Assembly: GCA_028700325.1 (NCBI GenBank)
Contig: JAQVSV010000016.1
Location: 1-35,720 of the forward strand
Direction: 5' to 3'
DNA: 35,720 nt
DNA from: Elusimicrobiaceae bacterium
GTDB taxonomy: Bacteria > Elusimicrobiota > Elusimicrobia > Elusimicrobiales > Elusimicrobiaceae
The translations under genes were made by a program, and so were the position numbers. Positions 2 to 35,501 of this stretch are shown piece after piece. Position 1 is the stretch's first letter; the number at the start of each line of letters is the position of its first letter. The notes beneath the pieces were generated by a model, which saw only the letters and a program-made list of their open reading frames with translations, was not told the origin of the DNA and did no database searches.

Positions 2-598
2 CAACTGATGCCGAAAACCCAGCTGCAGGCCGGATATACGTTCGCGCAGGTGAAATACAAAGACAATACCAGAAACAACTCCAACATTCATAAAGTGGAC
101 GGTGGCCTTATGGGGCAAGTCGCGCCCAAAGTGACCGGAGAAATAATAGCCGGAGTACAGTTCCGGGATTACTCGAACAACTTTAACACCGCATCCAACA
201 AAGCCACGACTTTCTCCTATGGAATTACGCTGGCCTGGACTCCGGGAGTCAATTCGACGCTTACGCTTAAAGGAATCCGGGACAATATCGAATCCATTTA
301 TGTGAACAGCCGCTACTACACCTCCACGCTCACCGATCTGGAATTCGAGCATAAGTTCGGCAAGCTGGTCGGCAACATGAGCATCGGCTACGAAAACGCG
401 CGCTATCCCGAAATCACCACCGGTTACACCGACAAACGCAGCGACGATTATCTGCATGTGTCAGCCGATCTGGACTACAATATCCAGAAATGGCTTAAAG
501 TCGGCGCGGGTTATATGTTCAGAAACCGCTCCTCCAACGAAAACACATATAACTACGACGATCACCAGGTCGCCTGCCAGATCAAAGCTACCTTTTAA
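2..598 (+). CDS. Outer-membrane beta-barrel protein, 3' part (5' end outside window)
   Basis: The frame is open from base 2, before the first in-frame ATG at base 8, so the gene very likely begins upstream of the window. About 198 codons remain. The product alternates polar and hydrophobic/aromatic residues in strand-sized runs (for example LEFEHKFGKLVGNMSIGYEN) and ends in a phenylalanine (QIKATF), the usual C-terminal signature recognised by the BAM machinery. Barrels of this kind (BBP2/DUF2320-like) often sit at the edge of exopolysaccharide loci, and here it lies beside a Wza/Wzc export system. The family assignment is inferred from pattern and context. It may help pass or anchor the polymer at the outer membrane. 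Confidence 0.72.
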   Translation, partial: QLMPKTQLQAGYTFAQVKYKDNTRNNSNIHKVDGGLMGQVAPKVTGEIIAGVQFRDYSNNFNTASNKATTFSYGITLAWTPGVNSTLTLKGIRDNIESIYVNSRYYTSTLTDLEFEHKFGKLVGNMSIGYENARYPEITTGYTDKRSDDYLHVSADLDYNIQKWLKVGAGYMFRNRSSNENTYNYDDHQVACQIKATF

Positions 599-891: not shown

Positions 892-1359
892 TTACGGATT
901 TAAAGGGGGAACCTGTTTTTGAAACAACTGGCAAGCCTGCAAGCCGGATTTTATAGCGTTAAACGCCGCCAGAAAAACCGCATCGCTTTTGCCCATGGGA
1001 TCCGGCAGCTCGCGGCCGGAGGTATTATGACAGTAATCGAGGAAAAGATGCATTTTCCGTATTGATTGCGGATATTTGTCAGCCAGAAACCCGTAATGAA
1101 CGTGTTCCATGACCAGAATCAGGTCGGCACGATTGACCAGTTCCTCGGTAACCAGTTTGGCGGTATGCCGCACGTCCGCGATGCCTGCGGCGGCCAGAAA
1201 TGCGCTCGCCTGGGGCGGTACACGGTAATAAGACTGCGCGGCAATCCCGGCGGAATCAACCGACACAGCCGCCCCGCCCGACCCGGCCAGAAACGCGGCG
1301 TATTTTTCCGCCACGAAACTGCGATTGACATTGCCGGTGCAGACAAACAATACGTTCAT
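892..1359 (-). CDS. Low-molecular-weight protein tyrosine phosphatase
   Basis: A 155-residue protein of normal length for the family. It carries the P-loop CTGNVNRS at residues 7-14 (C-x5-R, nucleophile Cys7, phosphate-binding Arg13) and the general-acid loop LPDP with Asp120. The commoner loop is CTGNICRS; Asn replaces the second Cys, which is not catalytic. Enzymes of this class (Wzb, Etp) dephosphorylate the tyrosine tail of bacterial BY-kinases that control polymer export. It is divergent from the polysaccharide operon and lies about 1.4 kb from the BY-kinase gene at 2769, the likely substrate. The ATG at 1359 has no Shine-Dalgarno sequence but a -10-like TAAAAT lies 8 bases upstream, so the mRNA may be leaderless. 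Confidence 0.9.
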   Translation of the reverse strand: MNVLFVCTGNVNRSFVAEKYAAFLAGSGGAAVSVDSAGIAAQSYYRVPPQASAFLAAAGIADVRHTAKLVTEELVNRADLILVMEHVHYGFLADKYPQSIRKMHLFLDYCHNTSGRELPDPMGKSDAVFLAAFNAIKSGLQACQLFQKQVPPLNP

Positions 1360-2061: not shown

Positions 2062-2742
2062 ATGTCAAAGAGATTCAGTTTATCCGTATGTCTTACCCTG
2101 TTAATCGCGGGTTGCGCGCCAGCGCAACCGAAAATAACGGCCCGAACCGCTGCGGCGGAGGTCGCCGTATCCACTCAAACCGCCACCGACAAACTGGATG
2201 AAACGGCGCTGCTTTCGGTAATAGACAAATTCGACCAGACCACCAATTACGAAATCCAGCCCGGAGATCTGCTTGAAATAACGATCTATCAGGAGCCGGA
2301 GATGAACCGCACCGTCCGCGTGAGCGGACAGGGCACCGTCAACATCCCTCTGGCCGGCAACACCGCAATCGGCGGGATCACTGTGCCGAAAGCCGAAGAG
2401 CTGCTGTCCGAAAAACTCAGCCAGTACCTGAAGTTTCCGCAGGTAAGCGTACTGATCAAGGAATATTCGAACAAACAGGTATATGTGCTGGGCGAGGTGA
2501 AAAAACCCGGCTCCATAGAACTGCCGATGGAACGGAAACTGAGCGTGCTGGAAGCGATCACCCTGTCCGGCGGGTTCACGGAAATAGCCGCGCAGGACCG
2601 CACCCGGATCCTGCGCAAGAAAAACGGGAAAAGCGAATTCATCAGCGTGCAGATTTCACGAATAACCAAGGAAGGCGATAAAAACGCCGATATTCTGCTG
2701 GAACCGAGCGATGTCGTTTTCGTGCCGCAAAGTTTCTTTTAA
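2062..2742 (+). CDS. Wza-type polysaccharide export lipoprotein (short form)
   Basis: The N-terminus is a lipoprotein signal with lipobox LIAGC, giving Cys18 as the lipidated residue. A Poly_export domain starts near residue 59 (YEIQPGDLLEITIYQEPEMN), followed by an SLBB-like domain from about residue 134 (VYVLGEVKKPGSIELP). The protein ends at residue 226 (DVVFVPQSFF), so it is well short of E. coli Wza (379 residues) and lacks the extra SLBB domain and C-terminal amphipathic helix that line the outer-membrane pore. It may pair with a separate outer-membrane barrel, for which the gene ending at 598 is a candidate. Next is the Wzc-like kinase gene, its usual partner. The start is inferred to be leaderless. 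Confidence 0.9.
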   Translation: MSKRFSLSVCLTLLIAGCAPAQPKITARTAAAEVAVSTQTATDKLDETALLSVIDKFDQTTNYEIQPGDLLEITIYQEPEMNRTVRVSGQGTVNIPLAGNTAIGGITVPKAEELLSEKLSQYLKFPQVSVLIKEYSNKQVYVLGEVKKPGSIELPMERKLSVLEAITLSGGFTEIAAQDRTRILRKKNGKSEFISVQISRITKEGDKNADILLEPSDVVFVPQSFF

Positions 2743-2768
2743 CCCGGCCTGAGCCGTATGGGAATGTC

Positions 2769-4529
2769 ATGACTGAACAGGAAAATTTGCAGGAAATAGA
2801 TTTTCTTTATTACGGCGAAACTTTATTGCGCCGCAGGTGGATTCTGCTGTCTTGCTGGGCGGCGGTCGTTCTGCTGGTTCTGCTGGTAACGGTAAGAACA
2901 CGGCCCGTCTATCAGGCCTCCAGCCTCATTGTAATTGAACGGGAGAAAAATTCCGGCGCGACAATTCAATCCGGCCCGATGGTGGAGCGCGACAATCTGG
3001 ACTATTACCAGACGCAATACAAGCTCCTGCAAAGCCGCACTCTCCTGACAAAAGTTTATGACGCCTTGAAGCTGGGCCAATATGAGGATTTTGCCGAACC
3101 GAACGGAATTGAAAAGCTGTACCGCGCGATAACCATCTCGCCCGTTCAGAAAAGCCGGCTTGTGTACATACGGGCCAGTTCGCACGAGCCGAAACTGGCC
3201 GCCAGCATTTCAAACACGTTAAGCAACACCTACATACAGGGCAACATGAGCAACCAGCTGTTCATGTCGCAGGACGTGCTGAAGGCGCTGCAGGAACAGG
3301 AAGGCACAAAATCCTCGTCCGAATTATTCGATTCCCTGCCGGCCGTGGTGAACAATCCGCTTATACAGGAACTGAAGAAGGAGCGGGCGAACCGGCAGTC
3401 TGAAATAGCGTCTTTGTCGGGCCGCTACACGAAAGCGCATCCGACGGTGGTATCGCTGCAGGCCAATCTCGATTCCATCAGCCGCCAGATCGAACAGGAA
3501 ATCAAACGCATAATCACCAGCCTGAAAATAGACCTGTCGGGCCAATTGCTCAGCAACAATATCCGCATGATTGATCCGGCCATAGTGCCGCTCAAACCCA
3601 GCAAACCGAAAAAGCTGCTTAATCTGGTTATCGGTGTCATAACCGGGTTCATTTTCGGGGTGCTGGTGGTGTTTATAGTCGAGGCGATAGACCAGACCAT
3701 CCGCACTCAGGACGACGTGGAAACCAAACTGAAAATACCGTTTCTCACGCTGCTGCCCATAGACGAAGCCCACAAAAGCACCCAGACGAAAACACCCGCC
3801 TATCACACTTTGCTGGCGAAAGACCAGTCGCTCACCAGCGAAGCGGTGCGCAACCTGCGCACGATGATAGATTTCGCGGAAGTGACCGAACCGAACAAAT
3901 CTTTTCTGGTAACCAGTTCCATGCAGGGCGAAGGGAAAAGCTATGTCTGCGCCAACATAGCGTTTTCAATCGCGCAGGCGGGTGAAAAAGTGTTGATAAT
4001 AGACGGCGATCTGCGCCGTTCCAATATCCACAAGCTGTTCCGGATCTCCAACGCAAAAGGCGTAAGCGATTTTCTGGCGCGCGGGCGCGACGCACTGGAA
4101 CTGCGGGAGCTGGTGCAGAAATCCGAACTGGAAAATCTTGATATCCTGCCCTGCGGGCCCCGGCCGCCCAACCCGGCGGAACTGCTCAATACCCCGCGGG
4201 TGTCCGCGCTGATTGACTGGGCCATGTGCAATTACGACCGGGTGATAATAGACTGTCCGCCGGTGTTTCCGATAAGCGACATCATGCTCTGGGGCAAATA
4301 CATCGGCCGCTGCATCTTCATCGTGCGGCATGGCGAAACGCGCGTCAAACTGATCCAGAACGCGCTGGGCCAGCTTGAAAAAACCGGAGTGAAAATGCTG
4401 GGCGCGGTGGTGAACATGTCAAAACTGGGCGGTCTGTCCTACTCTTATTACGGCAGCTATTACAAATACAAGTACAATTACAATTATCAGGCCGACAGCG
4501 ACTCTTCCGACAAAAAAGAGGAAACCTGA
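2769..4529 (+). CDS. Chain-length determinant / BY-family tyrosine autokinase (Wzc-like)
   Basis: A 586-residue fusion of a Wzz domain and a BY-kinase. Membrane segments lie at about 24-42 and 285-306, with a periplasmic, partly coiled-coil region between. The cytoplasmic kinase has Walker A SSMQGEGKS (about 381-390), Walker A' LIIDGDLRRS (about 407-416) and Walker B VIIDCPP (about 492-498). The C-terminus is a dense cluster with nine tyrosines in about 17 residues (557-573), the autophosphorylation tail. It controls chain length and export with the Wza-like protein; the divergent phosphatase at 892-1359 probably resets the tail. It is shorter than E. coli Wzc (720), mainly in the periplasmic part. 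The gene follows the lipoprotein gene by 26 bases, with GGGA before the ATG. Confidence 0.94.
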   Translation: MTEQENLQEIDFLYYGETLLRRRWILLSCWAAVVLLVLLVTVRTRPVYQASSLIVIEREKNSGATIQSGPMVERDNLDYYQTQYKLLQSRTLLTKVYDALKLGQYEDFAEPNGIEKLYRAITISPVQKSRLVYIRASSHEPKLAASISNTLSNTYIQGNMSNQLFMSQDVLKALQEQEGTKSSSELFDSLPAVVNNPLIQELKKERANRQSEIASLSGRYTKAHPTVVSLQANLDSISRQIEQEIKRIITSLKIDLSGQLLSNNIRMIDPAIVPLKPSKPKKLLNLVIGVITGFIFGVLVVFIVEAIDQTIRTQDDVETKLKIPFLTLLPIDEAHKSTQTKTPAYHTLLAKDQSLTSEAVRNLRTMIDFAEVTEPNKSFLVTSSMQGEGKSYVCANIAFSIAQAGEKVLIIDGDLRRSNIHKLFRISNAKGVSDFLARGRDALELRELVQKSELENLDILPCGPRPPNPAELLNTPRVSALIDWAMCNYDRVIIDCPPVFPISDIMLWGKYIGRCIFIVRHGETRVKLIQNALGQLEKTGVKMLGAVVNMSKLGGLSYSYYGSYYKYKYNYNYQADSDSSDKKEET

Positions 4530-9790: not shown

Positions 9791-10930
9791 ATGCAACCCT
9801 TAATACTCCATATCGCAGGATTTGCACCCGCATACGGAGGAAATTTCATTGCCTCTTTGGCGGTGGTTCGGGAGAACTGCAAAAACAATGGGCGGGATTT
9901 CGCACTTATATTACCACAAGAAGCGCAGGAGCGGCCTTGGTGCAAAGATTTGATATCAAAAGGCTGGGATATACATTTCATTACCAGGAAATCTATTGTT
10001 GGAAATGTTTACCAGCTAATAAAAATTTGTACGAGAAAAAAACCTAAAATATTGCATACACATTTCACCGAGTTCGATATAGCCGCATGGTTGACTGCGC
10101 ACATTATTAGCCTTGCCCAACGGAGAACAATTAGAACAATATGGCATATTCACTCAGATTTTCCGATCCAGAATACTTTCCTAAGAAAGCTCAAGGATCT
10201 CATTAAGTTCAGGGCTATGGGCAGGTCGGCTTATATCATTATAGTAAGCAATCATTTGAAGAATCGGCCGTTAGCAGCCGGATTTAATAAAAATAGAATA
10301 TTTGTTGTAGCAAACGGCATAAGCTTTGACAGATTATACAATCCCCAAAATAAGACAAGTATATTTAAAAAGCTGGGGCTAAAAAAGGATACTACTGTAC
10401 TTATGTTCGGCTGGCATCCTTTTATTAAAGGAGTGGATATAGCGCTCTCCGCTTTCGAAATTGTGCAAAAAACAAGACCGGATATCTCACTGGTAATTGT
10501 AGGCCTGGATAAAACAAAAACCGAACTCGCGCGCAGATACACCAAATACCCTGCATGGTTATATTTAATACCACCCACGCAAAACGTAACGGAATATTTT
10601 GCAAATGCCAATATATTTCTTTCTGCCAGCAGACGTGAAGGGTTTCCATATTCAGTTGCGGAGGCCATTGCCTGTGGCTGCTTGATAATTTCCAGTAATA
10701 TTCCCGCATTGGAATGGATGAAAAATAATATTAACTGTTTATGGCATGAACCTGAAAATACGCATGAATTGGCAAGCAATATTCTTTCCTATATGGCACT
10801 ACATGGTGAAGATACAATAATTAAAATTGTCAAACCAAACATAGATTTTATAAAAGAAAGGTATTCAGCAGAAAGATACGCTCGAAACCTTGTGAAAATA
10901 TATAACGATATAACTTTCAAACAGATATGA
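9791..10930 (+). CDS. Glycosyltransferase, GT4 family
   Basis: A 379-residue GT-B protein. The donor-binding C-terminal half carries VANGISFD (about 174-181), TVLMFGWHPFIKGVDIALSA (about 201-220) and SASRREGFPYSVAEAIACG (about 280-298), the last being the E-x7-E retaining-GT signature of GT4. It is cytoplasmic and probably adds one sugar of the repeat unit. HPFIKGVDIA takes the place of the more usual G-R-L-x-x-x-K-G. It is coupled to the next gene by a 4-base ATGA overlap. The sugar donor cannot be inferred. Confidence 0.87.
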   Translation: MQPLILHIAGFAPAYGGNFIASLAVVRENCKNNGRDFALILPQEAQERPWCKDLISKGWDIHFITRKSIVGNVYQLIKICTRKKPKILHTHFTEFDIAAWLTAHIISLAQRRTIRTIWHIHSDFPIQNTFLRKLKDLIKFRAMGRSAYIIIVSNHLKNRPLAAGFNKNRIFVVANGISFDRLYNPQNKTSIFKKLGLKKDTTVLMFGWHPFIKGVDIALSAFEIVQKTRPDISLVIVGLDKTKTELARRYTKYPAWLYLIPPTQNVTEYFANANIFLSASRREGFPYSVAEAIACGCLIISSNIPALEWMKNNINCLWHEPENTHELASNILSYMALHGEDTIIKIVKPNIDFIKERYSAERYARNLVKIYNDITFKQI

Positions 10931-12168
10931 ATCATTACAAATCCCAGATTAACAAAGCAGTTTCCGGAGAACATCTCCTGCATCTGGCATTTTATGCCTT
11001 TCTTCTATGGATACCCATTGAAACACTTTTCGTCATAACTAGCGAATCTGGCGATAATCTTACAATTTCAAGACTGTTAGGCTATTTTCTATTCATAATG
11101 GCACTGGCTAACTACAAAATATGTTTCAATAGATTTCCATTGGTTTTTTGGTTGACATTCTTTTTCATCACAACCTATATCGTTTCGATACTCTGGATCC
11201 CGGCCAACATGACAGAAGAAGCGGTACAAAGCATAGCTACACTCATGCAAATGTTTGTCCTCTTCATAATTTCACTTAACCTTTTTCGAAAGGCAAGCTT
11301 TAGAGAATCCGTTTTTCGCATTTACGGCTGGTGGACAACTATCGTGGCTGCCGCCATGTTATGGGGCGATTTGGGAATCGATTATTCAGATTCCGGCCGA
11401 TTGTCAATGGGGTTGGAAAACCCTAATGTTTTAGCCGGAACATTTGCAATAGGCGTTGCATGTATTGTGAATGACAAAAAATTATTTGTGGCAAAACTCT
11501 TTATACTTCGTCTATGCCTAAACTTGATGGCATTTACTGTGCTAATGCTGGCAATAATAAAAACAGGATCGCGTGGAGGATTAATTGCCGCACTTGCAGG
11601 TATTATTGCACTGGGCCTTTGCGGAGGCAAAACAAACCGCACTGCAAAAAATTTATTTATCTCAGCGGTAAGTATTGGCGTTTTAGGCTATCTCATTTTG
11701 CAAGAATTTGGCAGTGGAGGATTAACCGCCATAAGATTGATTAACACATGGGACACCGGTGATACCGCCGGGCGAACAATCATATGGAAAGCCGCTTGGG
11801 ATATGATTTTATCAAAACCATTGCTCGGCTACGGTTGCTATAATAATTTTGTGGAATTAGGAAATAATTTAGGGTTGTACACTGGCAGGGATACTCACAA
11901 TCTTTTTCTGGCGGTATTAACTTCTGTGGGATTAATCGGCGGTTTGCCATTTATATACGCCATATTACTTACTTGGTTTAAATCATGGCGTTTTGGCAGA
12001 ATGGAAAGCAATTCAATATATTTTGCAACAATGAGCACAGTAATTGCAATAAATACATCTGGAACGGGGTATCACCAAAAGATATTCTGGGTGGTTTTGG
12101 CAGCTGCTGTTGCCAGTGGGCTTGAATATGATTCAGTAAAATCCAATCCGAGGAAAATTAGCGGATGA
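10927..12168 (+). CDS. O-antigen/exopolysaccharide polymerase (Wzy-like, Wzy_C domain)
   Basis: A 413-residue polytopic protein with about 10-12 membrane segments. TGSRGGLIAALAGIIAL (about 213-229) is the periplasmic-loop start typical of the Wzy_C/WaaL family, and the large loop continues with GYGCYNNFVEL and DTHNLFLAVLTSVGLIGGLP, including the conserved His. Because it sits inside the AT-rich cassette beside the flippase and glycosyltransferases, polymerisation of the repeat unit is the more likely role. Ligase activity cannot be ruled out. ATGA overlaps couple it on both sides. Confidence 0.83.
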   Translation: MNHYKSQINKAVSGEHLLHLAFYAFLLWIPIETLFVITSESGDNLTISRLLGYFLFIMALANYKICFNRFPLVFWLTFFFITTYIVSILWIPANMTEEAVQSIATLMQMFVLFIISLNLFRKASFRESVFRIYGWWTTIVAAAMLWGDLGIDYSDSGRLSMGLENPNVLAGTFAIGVACIVNDKKLFVAKLFILRLCLNLMAFTVLMLAIIKTGSRGGLIAALAGIIALGLCGGKTNRTAKNLFISAVSIGVLGYLILQEFGSGGLTAIRLINTWDTGDTAGRTIIWKAAWDMILSKPLLGYGCYNNFVELGNNLGLYTGRDTHNLFLAVLTSVGLIGGLPFIYAILLTWFKSWRFGRMESNSIYFATMSTVIAINTSGTGYHQKIFWVVLAAAVASGLEYDSVKSNPRKISG

Positions 12169-17263: not shown

Positions 17264-17870
17264 ACTTTATGTCCCGGCAGGCAAACGCATGCTGGACATG
17301 ACGCTGATAATATTCGCGCTGCCGCTGGTTATTCCGCTTTTCATTGCCGCGGCGCTCGCGGTTAAAGCCGGGGATGGCGGGCCGGTATTTTTCAGGCAGA
17401 AGCGCGCCGGCCTTGCTTTCCAGCCTTTTTTTATCCTGAAATTTCGCACGATGACGGAAAACGCCGAACGGCAGGGCGCCCAGATAACGGCCGGAGGCGA
17501 CACCCGGATAACGCCGGTCGGAAAATTCCTGCGCGCCGCAAAGCTCGACGAGCTGCCCCAGCTTTTTAACGTGCTGAAAGGCGAGATGAGCCTTGTGGGG
17601 CCGCGCCCGGAGGTGGCCCGCTATGTGGAGCTGTTTCGCCAGGATTATGAAACCGTGCTGTCCGTGCGGCCCGGAATAACCGACTATGCCGCCATCGCAT
17701 TTCGCAACGAAGAGGAACTGCTCGCCCGCTGCCAGCGCCCGCGGGACGCTTATGTTAACGAGATTCTGCCCGCCAAAATCGCGCTTTACAAAAAATATGT
17801 CGCGGAAATTTCTTTTTTGACAGATGTCAAAATACTTGCAAAAACTGCCGTGGCGGTGTTTTGCAGATGA
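17253..17870 (+). CDS. Undecaprenyl-phosphate sugar phosphotransferase (small monotopic PGT)
   Basis: A 205-residue member of the bacterial sugar transferase family (PF02397). A single re-entrant hydrophobic segment lies at about 12-36, followed by GPVFFRQKRAG, FRTMT, KLDELPQLFNVLKGEMSLVG and PRPE (about 92-128), then VRPGITDYAAIAFRNEEELL. The catalytic Asp-Glu pair lies in KLDELPQ. At this length it is the minimal type (PglC/EpsL-like), without the multi-helix WbaP N-terminal domain. It loads the first phospho-sugar onto undecaprenyl phosphate at the inner membrane and so initiates repeat-unit synthesis. It overlaps both neighbours (11 bases upstream, ATGA downstream). Confidence 0.92.
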   Translation: MPARLYVPAGKRMLDMTLIIFALPLVIPLFIAAALAVKAGDGGPVFFRQKRAGLAFQPFFILKFRTMTENAERQGAQITAGGDTRITPVGKFLRAAKLDELPQLFNVLKGEMSLVGPRPEVARYVELFRQDYETVLSVRPGITDYAAIAFRNEEELLARCQRPRDAYVNEILPAKIALYKKYVAEISFLTDVKILAKTAVAVFCR

Positions 17871-19594
17871 ACCTCGCGCTTATTGCCGCGCTTTCGGTGT
17901 TTGCGCCGCTCGCGTTCGCAAGCGTTGAGCCGTGGGCCAGGGCTCTGCTTGAAACCGGCATGCTGCTTGCCGCCGTTTTAACGGTTACCCGCAGCCGTTA
18001 CCTTTACCCCTCGCGCGCCAGCACCACTATCGTTGCGGGCGCGCTGGCGGTGGCTTTGACAGGTCTGCTTCAGTCAGCCTCGGCGCACCCGGTGAACGCG
18101 CATGCCGGCTGGCTGCCGTTCACGGTCTGGCGGCCCGGCACCAGGGACGGCATTGTGCTGTGGTGCTGTTATGCGGCGTTTGCGTTCGCCGTGACGCAGG
18201 CGGTGGAACGGAAAATTCACCTGAAAATCGCCATGTGGTCAGTTTTCCTGACCGGCCTTGTGGTGGCATTCACCGGCATCTTCCAGAAAACCGGCAACGA
18301 AGTATACATCTACGGGCTGAGGAAGATATCCGGGACGGGTATGCCGCCATTCGGCCCGTTTATCAACCGCGACAACGCCGCCAGTTATCTGGTGATGAGC
18401 GCGCTTTGCGGGCTGGGCCTTTTTCTGTCCGGATTCGCCGCTTATGACAAATTCGCCGGGCGCGGCAAAAAACTGGATTTTTTCGCCCGGCAGGCCGTTA
18501 TGGCGTTAATGCTCGGCATCAATATTTACGCGATCATATTCACCGGCTCGCGGGGAGGCATCCATTCATTCGCGGCGGCGCTGTTTATCGTGGCGGTGCT
18601 GGCGGCCTTTAAATTTTTGAAAGCCGGCCGGCGGACACTCGCGCTCGGCGGCGCCGGCCTGCTCGCCTGCGGATACCTGACCTTGATCCATTTCACGCCG
18701 GACCTGCTGGCCCGCAACTCCGAAGGATTCACGAGCACGGTGCTTATCCGCCTGTCCATGTACAAAAGCGGATTCGTGATGTTCAGGGATTTCCCGCTGT
18801 GGGGCGCGGGCCTTGATTCGCTGATCCACGCTTTCCCGTACTATCAGAATTACGCGGTCGTGCCGGGCACGGTTGAACATGTCCACTCCGACTGGCTGGA
18901 ACTGGTTCTTACCGCAGGGCTTGCCGGCGCGCTGGCGTTCATGGCAGGACTAACGGCATTCATGTTCTACGCCGTGCGGACTGTAATGAAAAGCATGTCG
19001 CCGCAAAAAACCATCGCGGGGATCTGCCTGCTCGCCGCGGCAGTTGCTTTCTGCCTGCACGCCTGTTTTGATTTCCCGCTTCAGATTCCCGGCAACGCGC
19101 TGACCTTTTTCCTTATACTGGGGCTGTTAGGCACCAAAACCTTTGAAAAAGCGCGTGCGGATTTCGATGCAACCCGCAAACTGAAAACCCGATCCTCCCG
19201 TTACCGGGCGGCACTGGTTCCGGCCGCCGCCATATTGGGAATACTGGCATTGCCGCCGGGACTGGCGAACATATGCCGGCTGGACGCCGCCGGACTCGAT
19301 CCCGCAGGCAAAGCGGTTCTGCTTGAAAAATCGCTGCTGTGGCAGGCCGACCCACGCACAGCGCGCAGCGCCGCCATAAATTATTACAACATGGCGGTCC
19401 GCGAACCGGAGAAAAGACGTTTTTATCTCAACAAAGCCGCGGAAACATATATGCCCTATCTAAAGCTGACACCGCTTAACATTCCGTTGAAAAAAACCGC
19501 CGCCAAAACAGCGGATTTCATGGCCTCCGACCGTCATGATTCCGGCAGCAAAAACAAATCCCGCCAGCCTGGTCGGCAAACTACTGTCAATTAA
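17867..19594 (+). CDS. O-antigen ligase family membrane protein with C-terminal extension
   Basis: The ATG at 17867 overlaps the previous stop as ATGA and follows GGCGG by 10 bases; the in-frame TTG at 17861 is less likely. The 575-residue product has about 10-12 membrane segments. FTGSRGGIHSFAAALFIV (about 225-242) and the loop GAGLDSLIHAFPYYQNY ... VEHVHSDWLELVLTAGLAG (about 308-348, conserved His) are Wzy_C/WaaL features. The last 150 residues are soluble and helical, TPR-like in appearance (AVLLEKSLLWQADPRTARSA). It is GC-rich, unlike the Wzy at 10927, so it probably belongs to the stable part of the locus and may be a ligase or a second polymerase. Confidence 0.82.
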   Translation: MNLALIAALSVFAPLAFASVEPWARALLETGMLLAAVLTVTRSRYLYPSRASTTIVAGALAVALTGLLQSASAHPVNAHAGWLPFTVWRPGTRDGIVLWCCYAAFAFAVTQAVERKIHLKIAMWSVFLTGLVVAFTGIFQKTGNEVYIYGLRKISGTGMPPFGPFINRDNAASYLVMSALCGLGLFLSGFAAYDKFAGRGKKLDFFARQAVMALMLGINIYAIIFTGSRGGIHSFAAALFIVAVLAAFKFLKAGRRTLALGGAGLLACGYLTLIHFTPDLLARNSEGFTSTVLIRLSMYKSGFVMFRDFPLWGAGLDSLIHAFPYYQNYAVVPGTVEHVHSDWLELVLTAGLAGALAFMAGLTAFMFYAVRTVMKSMSPQKTIAGICLLAAAVAFCLHACFDFPLQIPGNALTFFLILGLLGTKTFEKARADFDATRKLKTRSSRYRAALVPAAAILGILALPPGLANICRLDAAGLDPAGKAVLLEKSLLWQADPRTARSAAINYYNMAVREPEKRRFYLNKAAETYMPYLKLTPLNIPLKKTAAKTADFMASDRHDSGSKNKSRQPGRQTTVN

Positions 19595-19659: not shown

Positions 19660-21534
19660 ATGCCGCATCGTTTTTCGAGATACAATAGATTAATTATCCT
19701 GACCGCAGATGCCGGTTCGGTAGCATTGTCGTTTCTGCTGGCGTTTCTGCTGCGCTTTGATTTTCACATACCGGCTGTTCAGATGGATTCCATGCTTATG
19801 GCTATCCCGCTGGCTGTCGGGATACGCATAGGCGCGCTGGAATTTTTCGAAATCTACAAAGGTCTTTCGCGCTACGCAAGCATCAGGGAACTGGGCAATA
19901 TTCTAAAAGCGGTGCTCATTGCCCAGTTGGGCATAGCGGCGCTGCTGCCGTTTTTAAGGCCCGGGTTTCCGCGCTCGATACTCATTCTGGAACCATTGCT
20001 GACGCTTCTGCTTATAGGAGGCTCGCGTTACTTTATCCGGCTGACCCGTAACTGGCGTTACGGAACAAAACATACCTCCGATACTCTGCCGAAAATGCTG
20101 ATCTTCGGCGCGGGCGATATGGGAGAAGCGTTGCTCAGAAGCATGCTGGACTCGGAACACCCGACCGCGCGCATTGTGGGGTTTCTTGACGACAATCCCA
20201 GCAAATGGGGCCGCCACATTCACGGCATAACCATTTTCGGAGGCAAGAACAAACTCACGAAAATCATCAAAGACTGCGAGGTGGACGAAGTGGTGGTCGC
20301 CATATCCGCCTCCAAGGGCAGGATCATCCGCGAACTGATCGAAATCTACTCCCGGAATATTGACAGGAAAGTGCTGTTTAAAACCGTTCCGGCAATGGAA
20401 GATGTTATAAAAGGGATGTCGCCGTCCACGCATCTGCGCAACATCAAGCTGTCGGATCTGCTGCAGCGCAAACCGGTTACGCTTGATATGGAAGCGGTTA
20501 TCGGACTGCTGTCCGGGAAAACCATACTGATAACCGGCGCGGGCGGTACTATCGGCAGCGAGGTGTGCAGGCAGATCCTGTCCTATAATCCGAAACGGAT
20601 TATCCTGCTGGAAAACAACAATACCGCGCTGTTTAACATTGACCGAGAATTGAACGACAAACATCCGGCCGCGAAGTTCGTGTCGGTCGCGGGCGATATC
20701 CGCGACCGGGAAACCTTGAAAAACATTTTTGAGACCTACAGTCCGACAGTAATATTTCACGCCGCGGCGCACAAACATGTCCCGCTGATGGAGCATAACC
20801 CTCAGGAAGCCGTAAAAAACAACGTGCTGGGCACACGGCTGGTCGCGGAAACCGCGGCTCAATACGGGGCGGAACGGTTTCTGTTCATCTCGACCGACAA
20901 GGCAGTGCGCCCTTCAAGCGTAATGGGCGCGACAAAACAGCTCGCCGAACGGATGCTCAACTCTTTCGCTGCTAAACATCCCGGCACGCGGTTCATGTCG
21001 GTGCGGTTCGGCAACGTGCTGGGCAGCTCCGGCAGCGCGGTACAGATTTTCCAGGAACAGATCGCCGCCGGCGGGCCGGTTACAGTCACCGACGAAAACA
21101 CCACCCGCTATTTCATGACGACCGAGGAAGCCGTGCAGCTTATTCTGCAGGCCTGCTCCATGGGCAAGGGCGGAGAAGTGTTTGTGCTGAATATGGGCAC
21201 TTCGGTGAAAGTGCTTGATCTGGCAAAAAATCTCATTGCTTTAAACGGACTGGAACCCGGCCGCGACATCAAAATCAAGATCATCGGCCTGCGGCCCGGC
21301 GAAAAACTGCATGAGGAACTGTTCCGTGATTCCGACATACGAAAAGACACCGGGCACGGCGATATTTTCGCGGCTGTTCCTGACCATCTCGACGGCGACC
21401 TGCTTGACCGCCAGATGCGTCAGCTTATGGAAGCGGTAAAACTGCACGACCCTGTTCCGGCGCTTAAACTCATAGCTGAAGCGGTTCCGACCTACAAGGG
21501 ACACCCGCTGCTGAAAGCGGACCACGCCAAATGA
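19660..21534 (+). CDS. NDP-sugar 4,6-dehydratase, FlaA1/PglF/WbpM type (membrane form)
   Basis: A 624-residue protein with about four N-terminal membrane segments (to about residue 125), a first nucleotide-binding domain (IFGAGDMGEALLRSML from about 148), and the catalytic SDR domain with ILITGAGGTIGSEVCRQIL from about 288. The active-site block STDKAVRPSSVMGATK (411-426) has Met422 where ordinary SDRs have Tyr, with Lys426. This Ser-Met-Lys arrangement is known for WbpM/PglF dehydratases. It probably makes UDP-4-keto-6-deoxy-N-acetylglucosamine at the inner membrane, the substrate for an aminotransferase such as that at 16121. It has its own promoter and is coupled (ATGA) to the next gene. 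Confidence 0.93.
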   Translation: MPHRFSRYNRLIILTADAGSVALSFLLAFLLRFDFHIPAVQMDSMLMAIPLAVGIRIGALEFFEIYKGLSRYASIRELGNILKAVLIAQLGIAALLPFLRPGFPRSILILEPLLTLLLIGGSRYFIRLTRNWRYGTKHTSDTLPKMLIFGAGDMGEALLRSMLDSEHPTARIVGFLDDNPSKWGRHIHGITIFGGKNKLTKIIKDCEVDEVVVAISASKGRIIRELIEIYSRNIDRKVLFKTVPAMEDVIKGMSPSTHLRNIKLSDLLQRKPVTLDMEAVIGLLSGKTILITGAGGTIGSEVCRQILSYNPKRIILLENNNTALFNIDRELNDKHPAAKFVSVAGDIRDRETLKNIFETYSPTVIFHAAAHKHVPLMEHNPQEAVKNNVLGTRLVAETAAQYGAERFLFISTDKAVRPSSVMGATKQLAERMLNSFAAKHPGTRFMSVRFGNVLGSSGSAVQIFQEQIAAGGPVTVTDENTTRYFMTTEEAVQLILQACSMGKGGEVFVLNMGTSVKVLDLAKNLIALNGLEPGRDIKIKIIGLRPGEKLHEELFRDSDIRKDTGHGDIFAAVPDHLDGDLLDRQMRQLMEAVKLHDPVPALKLIAEAVPTYKGHPLLKADHAK

Positions 21535-22640
21535 ACATGCCAGCCGGCCTGAAAACCACGCTGACGGCCGCAGCTTACGCTCTCTTTTGCGGCACGGCCT
21601 CGGCCTGGCGGCTCATTCCCGGCATGGCGGAACAGCCGCCGGCCGAAAATTTTTTCCCGATCGGGATCTACGGAGTGCTTTCGCCGGACTCGGTGCCTTT
21701 GCTCAAGGAAGCGGGCTTTAACACAATCCAGACTTACACGCAGGCGCCTGATAAAATTGCCGCGCTTGCGACGGCCTGCCGCAAGAACGGAATGAAACTG
21801 GTGTCCTCGCCCTACCGGGTAATGGGTTCGCCTTATGCGAAAGAAGCGCGGAAAACATGGCCGATACTGGCGTGGTATCTGTATGATGAGCCGGAGGTGC
21901 ACAGCCTTACTCCGCCCGAACTGTTTTTGAAATATATGGAAGTGAAGAACTGGTCGCAGAACCAGCGGACGGTTTTCGTGACAGGCGAAGGGAAATGCGC
22001 CGTGGCATACGGAAAATCCGCCGACGCGCTGATGGTGGACTGGTATCCGGTTCCGCACCTGCCTCTTGAAAGCGCCGGCAGGCAGATTGACACCGCGCTC
22101 AAAGGCCTCGGGATCATCAACCAGCCGTTAAAACCGGTCTGGGCGGTGCTGCAGGCATTTAACTGGCTGTACTACCCGCAGCACAGCAGGAACCGGATCG
22201 GCCGCTATCCGACCGCCGCCGAACTGCGTTTTATGACCTACCATTCTGTTTTATCGGGCGCGAAAGGCGTGTTTTATTTCACTTTCACCAACAGCAGCAC
22301 CGGACTGCCGCTCACCGAATATCCGGAGCTCTGGCACAATCTCTCAAAAACGGTGAAAGAAATCGCCGGCTTGCGGAAAGTGCTTGAGTCCGGCACGGAA
22401 ACGGAATGCCCCGCGGCCTGCGCCGGACCGCTCGCCTGCCGGGCATGGAAATACGACGGGAAAACCTATCTTGTAGCCGCCAACACGGCCAATACCCATA
22501 CCGTCATGCCGAAAGCGCTGCGCGACGACAGAAAATGGACGGTGCTGTTTGAGCGGTCCGCCAAAATAGAAGACCTGACGGAAGAACGCAGACACCCCCG
22601 TTTCAGCCCTTACCGGGTATTCGTATTGCGCAGCCGCTGA
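21531..22640 (+). CDS. Secreted glycoside-hydrolase-like (TIM-barrel) protein
   Basis: A 369-residue protein with a signal peptide ending in the cleavage motif ASA (about residue 25). FPIGIYGVLSPDSVPLLKEA, GFNTIQTYT and KLVSSPYRVMG look like successive beta-alpha units of a barrel. AWYLYDEPEV (about 110-119) resembles the acidic strand end of many GH-A-type families, and SGAKGVFYFTFTNSS (about 242-256) a later strand. A small beta domain closes the protein. I cannot name the family; a polysaccharide lyase or hydrolase role, for length control or release of the polymer, is inferred from position. It overlaps the dehydratase gene by ATGA. A related gene follows. Confidence 0.62.
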   Translation: MNMPAGLKTTLTAAAYALFCGTASAWRLIPGMAEQPPAENFFPIGIYGVLSPDSVPLLKEAGFNTIQTYTQAPDKIAALATACRKNGMKLVSSPYRVMGSPYAKEARKTWPILAWYLYDEPEVHSLTPPELFLKYMEVKNWSQNQRTVFVTGEGKCAVAYGKSADALMVDWYPVPHLPLESAGRQIDTALKGLGIINQPLKPVWAVLQAFNWLYYPQHSRNRIGRYPTAAELRFMTYHSVLSGAKGVFYFTFTNSSTGLPLTEYPELWHNLSKTVKEIAGLRKVLESGTETECPAACAGPLACRAWKYDGKTYLVAANTANTHTVMPKALRDDRKWTVLFERSAKIEDLTEERRHPRFSPYRVFVLRSR

Positions 22641-22689
22641 CCGCGTGCCGGGCCGGCCCGGTGCCATGCCCGGAAACTTTTAAATCCGG

Positions 22690-22718
22690 TTCCCATATCC
22701 CAAGGTTTGATATATAAT
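22690..22718 (+). promoter_or_regulatory. Promoter directly before the second GH-like gene
   Basis: TTCCCA (22690-22695, 4 of 6 to TTGACA) is 17 bases from a perfect TATAAT at 22713-22718. The proposed GTG start at 22725 is only 6 bases further on, with no Shine-Dalgarno sequence, which predicts a leaderless mRNA. Confidence 0.55.
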
Positions 22719-22724
22719 ATACAT

Positions 22725-23663
22725 GTGAGCGGAAAACGTTTCAAAAGAGTCACTGCCGCCGTTTTGACCGCAACGGCTTTCTGCGCTGTATGCAGCGCAT
22801 TCTTTCCAATCTGTATGGACGGGCCCGCCGCGCCGGAAGAGTATCGGCTTTTGAAAACCGCGGGGTTTAACTGTGTGTCAGTTTCCTCCGCCGGAAGCGG
22901 CGCGATGCCGCAAATCATCAAATCCGCAAAAGCCGCGGGCCTGCGGCTTATCCTGCCGCAGGCCGCGCTTGACGAAAACACCGTGAAAAACGTCTGGGCC
23001 GCATACGGCGGCTCAAACGCCGGGACCAACAGCATTATCACGGTCGCCGGCAGCGCGGCAGCGGCTTTCAAACTTGTTGAAAAATACAGCTACATTCTGC
23101 TTGCTCCTGCCTCGCAGTCCGATCCGCTCGCCTGCTCAAGACAAACAGGCCTGCTTACCGGCGCCATCAAACTCGCGGGGAAGAAAAGCGTGACCGAAGG
23201 CGTGTTCTGCCGGGTTCCATCCGATTTTTCGGACACGGCGGGCTTTCCGGTTTTTGAAACGCTGCGGTTCGCCGCATGGAGCGCGGTTGCCTCCGGAGCA
23301 ACCGGAATTTTTTACGGGCCGGCCGCGCCCGCCAGGCTTTCCGAACTCGGAGATCTGCTCGCCTGCGCCGCGCGCGTGAACGCCGAACTGGCCGACATGG
23401 CTCCGGTCGTTTCAGCCGCCCGCGCCGAACAGCCGCCGCTGCGCGCGCCCGCGCCGCTGCGCGCCGCCGCCTGGCGACACCACGGCAGACTCTATACCGT
23501 TTTGATAAACACCGGCCCGTCCGCCATGGCCGCTCCGGCTGAACTGCTGAACGGGCGGTTCCGCCCGCTGTTCGAAACCAACAGGGACGTGCGCGCCAGC
23601 CTCGCGCTTTATAAAGGCCGATATTATATACAGGGGCACCGTGTTCTGGTGCTGGAAAGCTGA
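22725..23663 (+). CDS. Divergent paralogue of the GH-like protein, acidic motif lost
   Basis: I take GTG at 22725 as the start. The open frame reaches TTG at 22707, but that stretch contains the -10 box. The product has about 312 residues and a signal peptide-like start (KRFKRVTAAVLTATAFCAV). It parallels the preceding protein: FPICMDGPAAPEEYRLLKTA / FPIGIYGVLSPDSVPLLKEA; TLRFAAWSAVASGATGIFYG / ELRFMTYHSVLSGAKGVFYF; and both end in a similar small domain (HRVLVLES / YRVFVLRS). The stretch equivalent to AWYLYDEPE is YSYILLAPASQ and lacks the acids. It therefore may bind rather than cut a glycan, or be decaying. No known function is claimed. Confidence 0.68.
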   Translation: MSGKRFKRVTAAVLTATAFCAVCSAFFPICMDGPAAPEEYRLLKTAGFNCVSVSSAGSGAMPQIIKSAKAAGLRLILPQAALDENTVKNVWAAYGGSNAGTNSIITVAGSAAAAFKLVEKYSYILLAPASQSDPLACSRQTGLLTGAIKLAGKKSVTEGVFCRVPSDFSDTAGFPVFETLRFAAWSAVASGATGIFYGPAAPARLSELGDLLACAARVNAELADMAPVVSAARAEQPPLRAPAPLRAAAWRHHGRLYTVLINTGPSAMAAPAELLNGRFRPLFETNRDVRASLALYKGRYYIQGHRVLVLES

Positions 23664-23667
23664 CTTT

Positions 23668-24384
23668 ATGACCCCAAAACCGCTTAAAAAATATTTGACA
23701 GGCCCATTAGCGCGGGTTACCCGGTTCGCGGCGCTGCTTGCGCTGGCGGGCTGCGCCGGCGCGCCGAAACTGGAAGGCCCGCAGTTGCCGCCGGCCGAGC
23801 AGCCTGTTGCGCAGGCTCCCGCGGCAAAGGAACCGGGGCTGGTGTTCAGATCGCCGGGAAAAATCAAAATCTTTTCGCATTCGGAAACAAACTGGCGGTA
23901 CCGCGACCTGCCCGCCGGACTTGACGCAGGTGACCGCATCCGTGTCGCGCCGGACAGCGGTTTTGCGGAAATCTATCTGCACAGGAATATCCTGATCCGG
24001 CTCGGCGCGGCCAGCACGCTGGGCATCATAAGCACCGCTCCGGCGGCTTTTGAACTGATAGCTGGGCAGGTGGAAATCTGGAATAATTCAGGCGCCGGGC
24101 TAAGCATCATATCGGAAGGCGCGGCGATAACCGCGGGCAATGGCACGCTGCTGGCCCGCATCACCGGGAAAAACAGCATTGAGGCCTGGGCTTACAAAAA
24201 CAGCATCACGGTGAAAAAAGACGCCTCGACCCAATTGGTGCCGGAAATGAAAAAATTATTTCTCTCGGCGGAAGGAGCGTTTTACCTCTCGCCGATCGGA
24301 CGGTTTAACAAAATACCGCCCATGCCGGAGCCGGACGCGCAACTGGTCCGGCAGGTGGATTCGCTATTTGCGCCGGAACGCTGA
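23668..24384 (+). CDS. FecR-like domain lipoprotein
   Basis: The start at ATG 23668 gives 238 residues; an in-frame GTG at 23641 would lie inside the previous gene. The signal peptide carries lipobox LALAGC (lipidated Cys about 29), followed by a Pro/Ala-rich linker. From about residue 62 the pattern is FecR-like: a glycine-rich G-x-I-K-I start, GLDAGDRIRVAPDSGFAEIY, IRLGAASTLGI, FELIAGQVEIW and AAITAGNGTLLARI. Such domains occur in sigma-regulator FecR and in periplasmic or outer-membrane proteins without signalling roles. No sigma factor is adjacent, so a structural role is likelier. It sits at the end of the polysaccharide locus, 21 bases before rpiB. Confidence 0.66.
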   Translation: MTPKPLKKYLTGPLARVTRFAALLALAGCAGAPKLEGPQLPPAEQPVAQAPAAKEPGLVFRSPGKIKIFSHSETNWRYRDLPAGLDAGDRIRVAPDSGFAEIYLHRNILIRLGAASTLGIISTAPAAFELIAGQVEIWNNSGAGLSIISEGAAITAGNGTLLARITGKNSIEAWAYKNSITVKKDASTQLVPEMKKLFLSAEGAFYLSPIGRFNKIPPMPEPDAQLVRQVDSLFAPER

Positions 24385-35325: not shown

Positions 35326-35397
35326 CGGGGAGTGGCTCAGTGGTAGAGCGCTCGCTTGGGGTGCGAGAGGTCGTGGGTTCAATTCCCACCTTCCCGA
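35326..35397 (+). tRNA. tRNA-Pro (GGG anticodon)
   Basis: A full cloverleaf. The acceptor stem CGGGGAG (35326-35332) pairs with CTTCCCG (35390-35396) with one G-U pair; the discriminator is A35397. The D-stem GCTC/GAGC, the anticodon stem CTCGC/GCGAG around TTGGGGT (anticodon GGG, 35358-35360) and the T-stem GTGGG/CCCAC with loop TTCAATT all form. CCA is not encoded (TTC follows). It reads CCC and CCU. Confidence 0.96.
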
Positions 35398-35424
35398 TTC
35401 GGCGGCACTGAACAAACAGTTTTT

Positions 35425-35501
35425 CGGGGCGTAGCGCAGCCCGGTAGCGCGCACGGTTCGGGTCCGTGATGTCGTGGGTTCAAATCCCACCGCCCCGACC
35501 A
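35425..35501 (+). tRNA. tRNA-Pro (CGG anticodon)
   Basis: The acceptor stem CGGGGCG (35425-35431) pairs with CGCCCCG (35491-35497), discriminator A35498, and an encoded CCA (35499-35501). The D-stem is GCGC/GCGC, the anticodon stem CACGG/CCGTG around TTCGGGT (anticodon CGG, 35459-35461), and the T-stem GTGGG/CCCAC with loop TTCAAAT. It reads CCG. It lies 27 bases after the first tRNA-Pro and probably shares its transcript. Confidence 0.97.

Follow-up and report, generated by a model that had tools for sequence, protein, structure and literature searches.

The stretch of DNA analysed here (35,720 nucleotides of contig JAQVSV010000016.1, assembly GCA_028700325.1, from an Elusimicrobiaceae bacterium of the phylum Elusimicrobiota; hereafter the window) is, judged from its gene content, a Wzx/Wzy-type exopolysaccharide locus. 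This work concerns two of its genes, which lie next to each other and encode the glycoside hydrolase (GH)-like proteins P1 and P2. They had been described in an original prediction as a tandem pair of secreted proteins, the second of which is missing the acidic motif of the first. The pair and its immediate surroundings consist of the following features:

19660-21534, plus strand: CapD-like NDP-sugar dehydratase, immediately 5' of P1 (PF02719, 2.5e-112)
21531-22640 including the stop, plus strand: P1, probably secreted GH-like protein with a predicted TIM barrel and C-terminal β domain (AlphaFold2 model, conservation)
22690-22718, plus strand: sigma70-like promoter match TTCCCA-17-TATAAT, 5' of P2 (consensus match only)
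22725-23663, plus strand: P2, putative pseudo-GH homologue with a signal-peptide-like start (homology, residue loss)
23668-24384, plus strand: lipoprotein gene, 3' of P2 (sequence; no Pfam family)

The reading frame of P1 (21531-22637 plus stop) starts in an ATGA overlap with the stop codon of the CapD-like gene. The P2 frame is open from 22641 to 23663 and has its likely start at GTG 22725, so that the coding part runs to 23660 and comprises 312 codons; an alternative TTG start is located at 22707, 18 bases 5' of the GTG. From its signal-peptide-like start, P2 also appears to be secreted. The three blocks that had been reported as shared are common to both proteins (FPIGIYGV/FPICMDGP, SGAKGVFYF/SGATGIFYG, and YRVFVLRS/HRVLVLES), and the resemblance is homology, beyond chance at the sequence level. 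BLASTP aligned the two proteins in two collinear segments (E=2e-8, 27% over 144 amino acids, and E=3e-6 over 51 amino acids), and a profile of 16 P1 orthologues matched P2 with E=1.3e-20 and, in a second stretch, 2.8e-7. A local tandem duplication, in contrast, was not shown: the sequence of P2 is more similar to those of P1 homologues from other families than to that of the adjacent P1, and trees pairing P1 with P2 were neither favored nor rejected in the approximately unbiased (AU) test (p=0.65 and 0.135).

The strong promoter ascribed to P2 is supported by a perfect TATAAT, but the -35 element TTCCCA agrees with the consensus at only 4/6 positions (overall 10/12). The -10 element ends 6 bases before the GTG, and therefore the transcript would be leaderless or nearly so, starting at or near this codon. 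No terminator was indicated in the gap between P1 and P2, in which the folding energy was no better than that of shuffled sequences (z=+1.05). The lipoprotein gene starts 4 bases past the P2 stop, and co-transcription with P2 is therefore probable. Its product has weak similarity (35 bits) to the FecR-like protein FecRc of a related exopolysaccharide locus (L049).

Fold and conserved residues of P1 and P2

The AlphaFold2 model of P1 (16 alignment rows, predicted local distance difference test (pLDDT) 86.8, predicted template modeling score (pTM) 0.84) is a TIM barrel followed by a C-terminal β domain, with eight barrel strands at residues 44-46, 65-67, 89-92, 112-118, 146-150, 166-170, 203-208, and 247-250. 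In this model, the motif WYLYDEPE is situated at the end of β4 and DWYP at the end of β6, and WAVLQAF forms β7. The residues Y116, E120, P121, D170, Y172, P173, W204, Q208, W212, and G246 are invariant in 72/72 full-length Elusimicrobiota homologues, and D119 has a single variant, to G, in the same set. The only homologue with GEP in place of DEP (L155:5664-6890, minus strand) has retained the Glu. Two full P1 homologues, both with DEP, were found on separate contigs of one genome (L123 and L124 of G071), and in another genome (G318) the P1 homologue is spread over two overlapping frames, due to a frameshift or an assembly error (L142:7406-8628); the latter genome also carries fragments of a short form, described below, on other contigs. 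The closest relatives of P1 are Elusimicrobia records, and WYLYDEPE is common to homologues in cyanobacteria and Lentisphaerae, the loci of which were partly chosen by this very motif.

P1 represents an unclassified GH-like family. The original prediction had recognized no named family, and in the profile search none of the Pfam and NCBIfam GH models reached its curated cut-off for either P1 or P2. Among P1 homologues, weak matches to the GH42 profile were obtained in 6/16 (best E 8.9e-4), together with one apiosidase match (0.004), and a sequence search of solved structures returned weak β-galactosidase stretches alone (E 0.013 and 0.023). The overall fold of P1 and P2 is that of the barrel plus β-domain enzymes of GH42, GH30, GH13, and GH140, and both models match such structures; however, the Foldseek matches of P1 to GH13, GH30, and GH140 enzymes had a TM-score of about 0.5 and 10-13% identity. 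P1 also differs from these enzymes in having DEP where clan GH-A has NE(P), and Gln at β7.

The acid/base Glu of clan GH-A, at the β4 end of the TIM barrel, has its counterpart in E120 of P1 (72/72), and P2 does not have it. At the β7 end, where the nucleophile Glu of this clan would be expected, P1 has the invariant Gln208, according to the strand count in the AlphaFold2 model. Because Gln occupies this usual nucleophile position, an ordinary GH-A mechanism is disfavored for P1, although, on the model, the nucleophile could sit at another position. An Asp-Glu pair at β4 is the arrangement in substrate-assisted families such as GH20 and GH123, and the pair of P1 would fit substrate-assisted catalysis. 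P1 is probably a GH-like enzyme of the exopolysaccharide locus in which E120 and D170 would have the catalytic role.

Structure prediction of both proteins, proposed together with the original prediction, gave the same fold and C-terminal domain, so at the level of the models P1 and P2 are of homologous fold. The P2 model (26 rows, pLDDT 84.5, pTM 0.84) has the same order of elements as P1 for β1-β3, β5-β8, and the C-terminal domain, and residues 90-103, where β4 is expected, are low-confidence coil. The claimed loss of the catalytic motif is borne out by comparing the 22 positions conserved to ≥95% in the family. Six are kept in P2 (G62, P173, P227, G243, G246, and E277) and 16 are lost, including Y116, D119, E120, P121, D170, W171, Y172, H176, W204, Q208, and W212. 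All of the lost positions fall between β4 and β7, with P173 as the lone near-invariant survivor there. WYLYDEPE is missing from P2, and the correspondence of AWYLYDEPE to an acid-free segment was reproduced in the best family alignment, where VWAAYGGSN stands opposite (D119 to G, E120 to G, P121 to S) and the pair D83-E84 of P2 is placed in the β3-α3 loop. It was not reproduced in one alternative MAFFT alignment, in which LDENTV (D83-E84) lies opposite the DEP motif, so that a DE pair would remain. The fate of the motif in P2 is therefore alignment-dependent, and D83-E84 is the main caveat to an acid-free P2.

The mean identity of P1 to the family is 41% in β1-β3, 46% in β4-β7, 56% in α7-β8, and 26% in the C-terminal domain, and the corresponding values for P2 are 26, 11, 37, and 25%. 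The excess divergence of P2 is thus concentrated in β4-β7 of the aligned sequence. Since the C-terminal domain of P2 is as conserved as that of P1 while β4-β7 has collapsed, P2 resembles a pseudo-hydrolase with a constrained remainder and not a product of random decay. In other words, it combines the homologous fold with the absence of the catalytic residues, provided that E120 and D170 are catalytic in P1.

Short homologues elsewhere in the phylum

The P1 profile also matches proteins that align at its two ends only. Ten such gutted homologues, of about 200-240 amino acids, pass from β1-β2 directly to α7-β8 and the C-terminal domain, whereas an eleventh (G203, L140) does not read through in a single frame. 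When a profile was built from the ten short forms, it matched the P1 profile with 99.8% probability over 132 columns. Most of those from family f15 begin with a lipobox-like LxxAC. Since β8, β1, and β2 are adjacent in a TIM barrel, the short forms plausibly keep one barrel wall, against which the C-terminal domain would pack. Pairwise ratios of nonsynonymous to synonymous substitution (dN/dS) are about 0.3-0.6 (NG86), and 0.17 and 0.22 (YN00, subset), which are rough values because dS is partly saturated.

Eight short forms are in exopolysaccharide loci. The short gene is immediately 3' of Wzy in L131, L132, L134, and L139, the last with a flippase 3', and in L140 it likewise follows Wzy and precedes a flippase. 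In L133, a Wzy fragment lies 5' of the short gene, and in L135 and L130 a flippase is immediately 5'. Furthermore, a Wzy_C protein (PF04932) fused to a C-terminal domain of the P1/P2 type (E=2.7e-16) is encoded at L141:7835-10762 (minus strand). The gene for this fusion adjoins a CapD gene and Wzc.

In the tree of the C-terminal region, the short pair of family f21 is nested among the P1 homologues of f21, and the f15 short forms group with f15. A single origin of all short forms including P2 was rejected (AU p=2.9e-5). Because of this rejection and these placements, gutting must have occurred at least twice. Grouping P2 with the f15 short forms was not rejected (AU p=0.73), and P2, in which most of the barrel is retained, could represent either an intermediate stage or a case of its own.

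The exopolysaccharide locus

The window contains Wza, Wzc, a Wzx-like protein, two Wzy_C proteins, several glycosyltransferases, an aminotransferase, a bacterial sugar transferase, and CapD, together with a nucleotidyl transferase and an epimerase, and sugar-phosphate enzymes 3' of the lipoprotein gene. Features outside the P1-P2 region are:

8-598, plus strand: outer-membrane β-barrel BBP2_2, truncated by the contig end (PF10082, 8e-15)
892-1359, minus strand: low-molecular-weight tyrosine phosphatase-like protein, read from sequence (MNVLFVCTGNVNRS)
2062-4529, plus strand: short Wza-type OPX protein (226 amino acids) and Wzc/Wzz-type co-polymerase (PF02563, PF02706, PF13807)
17861-19594, plus strand: Wzy/O-antigen-ligase family protein (PF04932, 1.3e-16)

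The phosphatase-like protein is probably the Wzb-type partner of Wzc. The two Wzy_C/O-antigen-ligase proteins within this one locus (10927-12168 and 17861-19594) differ from each other, and relatives of the second share a locus with P1 orthologues. Two tRNA genes close the window (35326-35498). The P1 gene of the sister family f2 is mostly oriented divergently from a FecR/cupin-like gene, an outer-membrane barrel, and Wzy; Wza and Wzc lie further out, as far as the fetched stretches extend. A conserved Wza/Wzc/Wzy neighborhood was found for the P1 homologues of f2 and for eight short forms, and it is incomplete in f1 and in parts of f15 and f21. The original prediction had taken neither the exopolysaccharide genes nor the short forms of other genomes into account.

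The 226-amino-acid Wza-type protein and the BBP2_2 barrel in a Wzx/Wzy locus resemble the short OPX/β-barrel exporters (PMC9601211); a text search of the main text of that paper gave no match to "glycoside hydrolase" or "Elusimicrob". It is well established that polysaccharide loci can encode hydrolases, examples being PslG, PelA, and the C-terminal domain of PgaB (PMC9075953, PMC9894940, PMC5933820), and P1 is similar to these in being a GH-fold protein encoded in a locus for polysaccharide biosynthesis and export. However, the sequence searches made here matched P1 to none of their families, and P2 and the short forms differ from them in lacking the catalytic residues. For PgaB, the C-terminal GH domain was initially reported to bind the polymer and to be critical for export (in a passage of PMC5933820). 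The literature searched contained no direct precedent for an exopolysaccharide locus with a catalytically inactive GH.

Possible functions and alternative explanations

We hypothesize that P1 is a probably enzymatic, secreted GH-like protein of the Wzx/Wzy locus, and that P2 is an old pseudoenzyme homologue that acts without catalysis (probability about 60%). P2 has lost the motif of the putative catalytic strand and kept the β8/β1/β2 side of the barrel together with the C-terminal β domain. Its non-catalytic action would take place in the periplasm or at the outer membrane, where the retained module may hold the growing polymer or guide it, or dock on the Wzy/OPX/β-barrel assembly. Meanwhile, P1 would trim the polymer by hydrolysis. 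Binding of glycan by P2 is plausible in view of the locus and the retained domain; assembly proteins may be its ligands as well. For the short forms, given their position beside Wzy and the Wzy fusion, the simplest reading is that they assist in assembling or exporting the polymer without catalysis. Tentatively, and with less than an even chance, gutted GH barrels that arose repeatedly in Elusimicrobiota would serve as non-catalytic factors in the assembly or export of Wzy-dependent polysaccharides, with β8-β1-β2 plus the C-terminal domain as the retained unit.

Several observations weigh against these proposals. Close P2 orthologues were sought in 149 genomes of the order and 341 of the phylum, and none was found; whatever P2 matched within the order was a P1 homologue. 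The branch leading to P2 is very long (3.3 changes per column in the full-length alignment), which fits relaxed constraint on the barrel too. For several P1 homologues of f1, f14, and f15, the recognized neighbors are limited to a sugar transferase or CapD, or there are none at all, and the short forms L136, L137, and L138 are outside recognizable exopolysaccharide loci. No P1 was seen in most short-form genomes (G199, G205, G206, G209, G227, G312, and G319), and therefore a P1-P2 partnership is not general.

The missing orthologues, the long branch, and the 11% identity of the barrel core would be in keeping with P2 as a functionless paralogue in slow decay with a frame not yet broken. We consider this unlikely, and the earlier argument against simple decay is supported. 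The TATAAT with its weak -35 element lies just 5' of the GTG, the 312-codon frame is intact with its signal-peptide-like start, the synonymous codon preference (0.182 per codon) is like that of the neighbors (0.18-0.23), the predicted fold reaches a pTM of 0.84, the C-terminal domain has diverged no more than that of P1, and the lipoprotein gene follows closely. In a simple simulation of random substitution in P1, 9% of trials kept an open frame at 0.1 substitutions per site and 0.5% did so at 0.25, and P2, with its frame intact, has diverged far beyond this range. The independently gutted forms are also maintained elsewhere, with dN/dS below 1. It is less probable still that P2 is an enzyme with relocated acids, e.g., D32 after β1, D83-E84 in the β3 loop, or D167/D170 after β7. 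This would be consistent with the adjacent pair opposite DEP in the one MAFFT alignment and with other acids near strand ends, but the motif context (WYxxDEP, DWYP, WxVxQxFxW) is gone from P2, D83-E84 is in a stretch with a pLDDT of about 41-54, and the region is missing altogether in most short forms. The invariant Q208 at the nucleophile position of clan GH-A and the GH models that all stay below cut-off would also suit a pair in which neither protein is a hydrolase, P1 being a binding or structural barrel and P2 having lost a binding cleft instead of catalysis. This, too, seems improbable to us, because the invariant E-P at the β4 end and D170 at β6, with aromatics around them, resemble an active site. 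The Asp-Glu pair also has its parallel in the GH20/GH123 arrangement, and the motif recurs in the cyanobacterial and Lentisphaerae homologues, within the selection of loci noted above.

It is an open question why loci for polysaccharides encode hydrolases of their own, as stated for PslG in a passage of PMC9075953. The repeated loss of the catalytic core beside Wzy, with the C-terminal domain kept, would amount to a natural experiment in which cutting is separated from scaffolding or binding, in a phylum where there has been hardly any work on polysaccharide genetics. On the more tentative reading of the gutted barrels as assembly or export factors, the selected function of this family would reside mainly in the C-terminal domain and in the way that this domain contacts the polymer or the polymerase, and not in hydrolysis.

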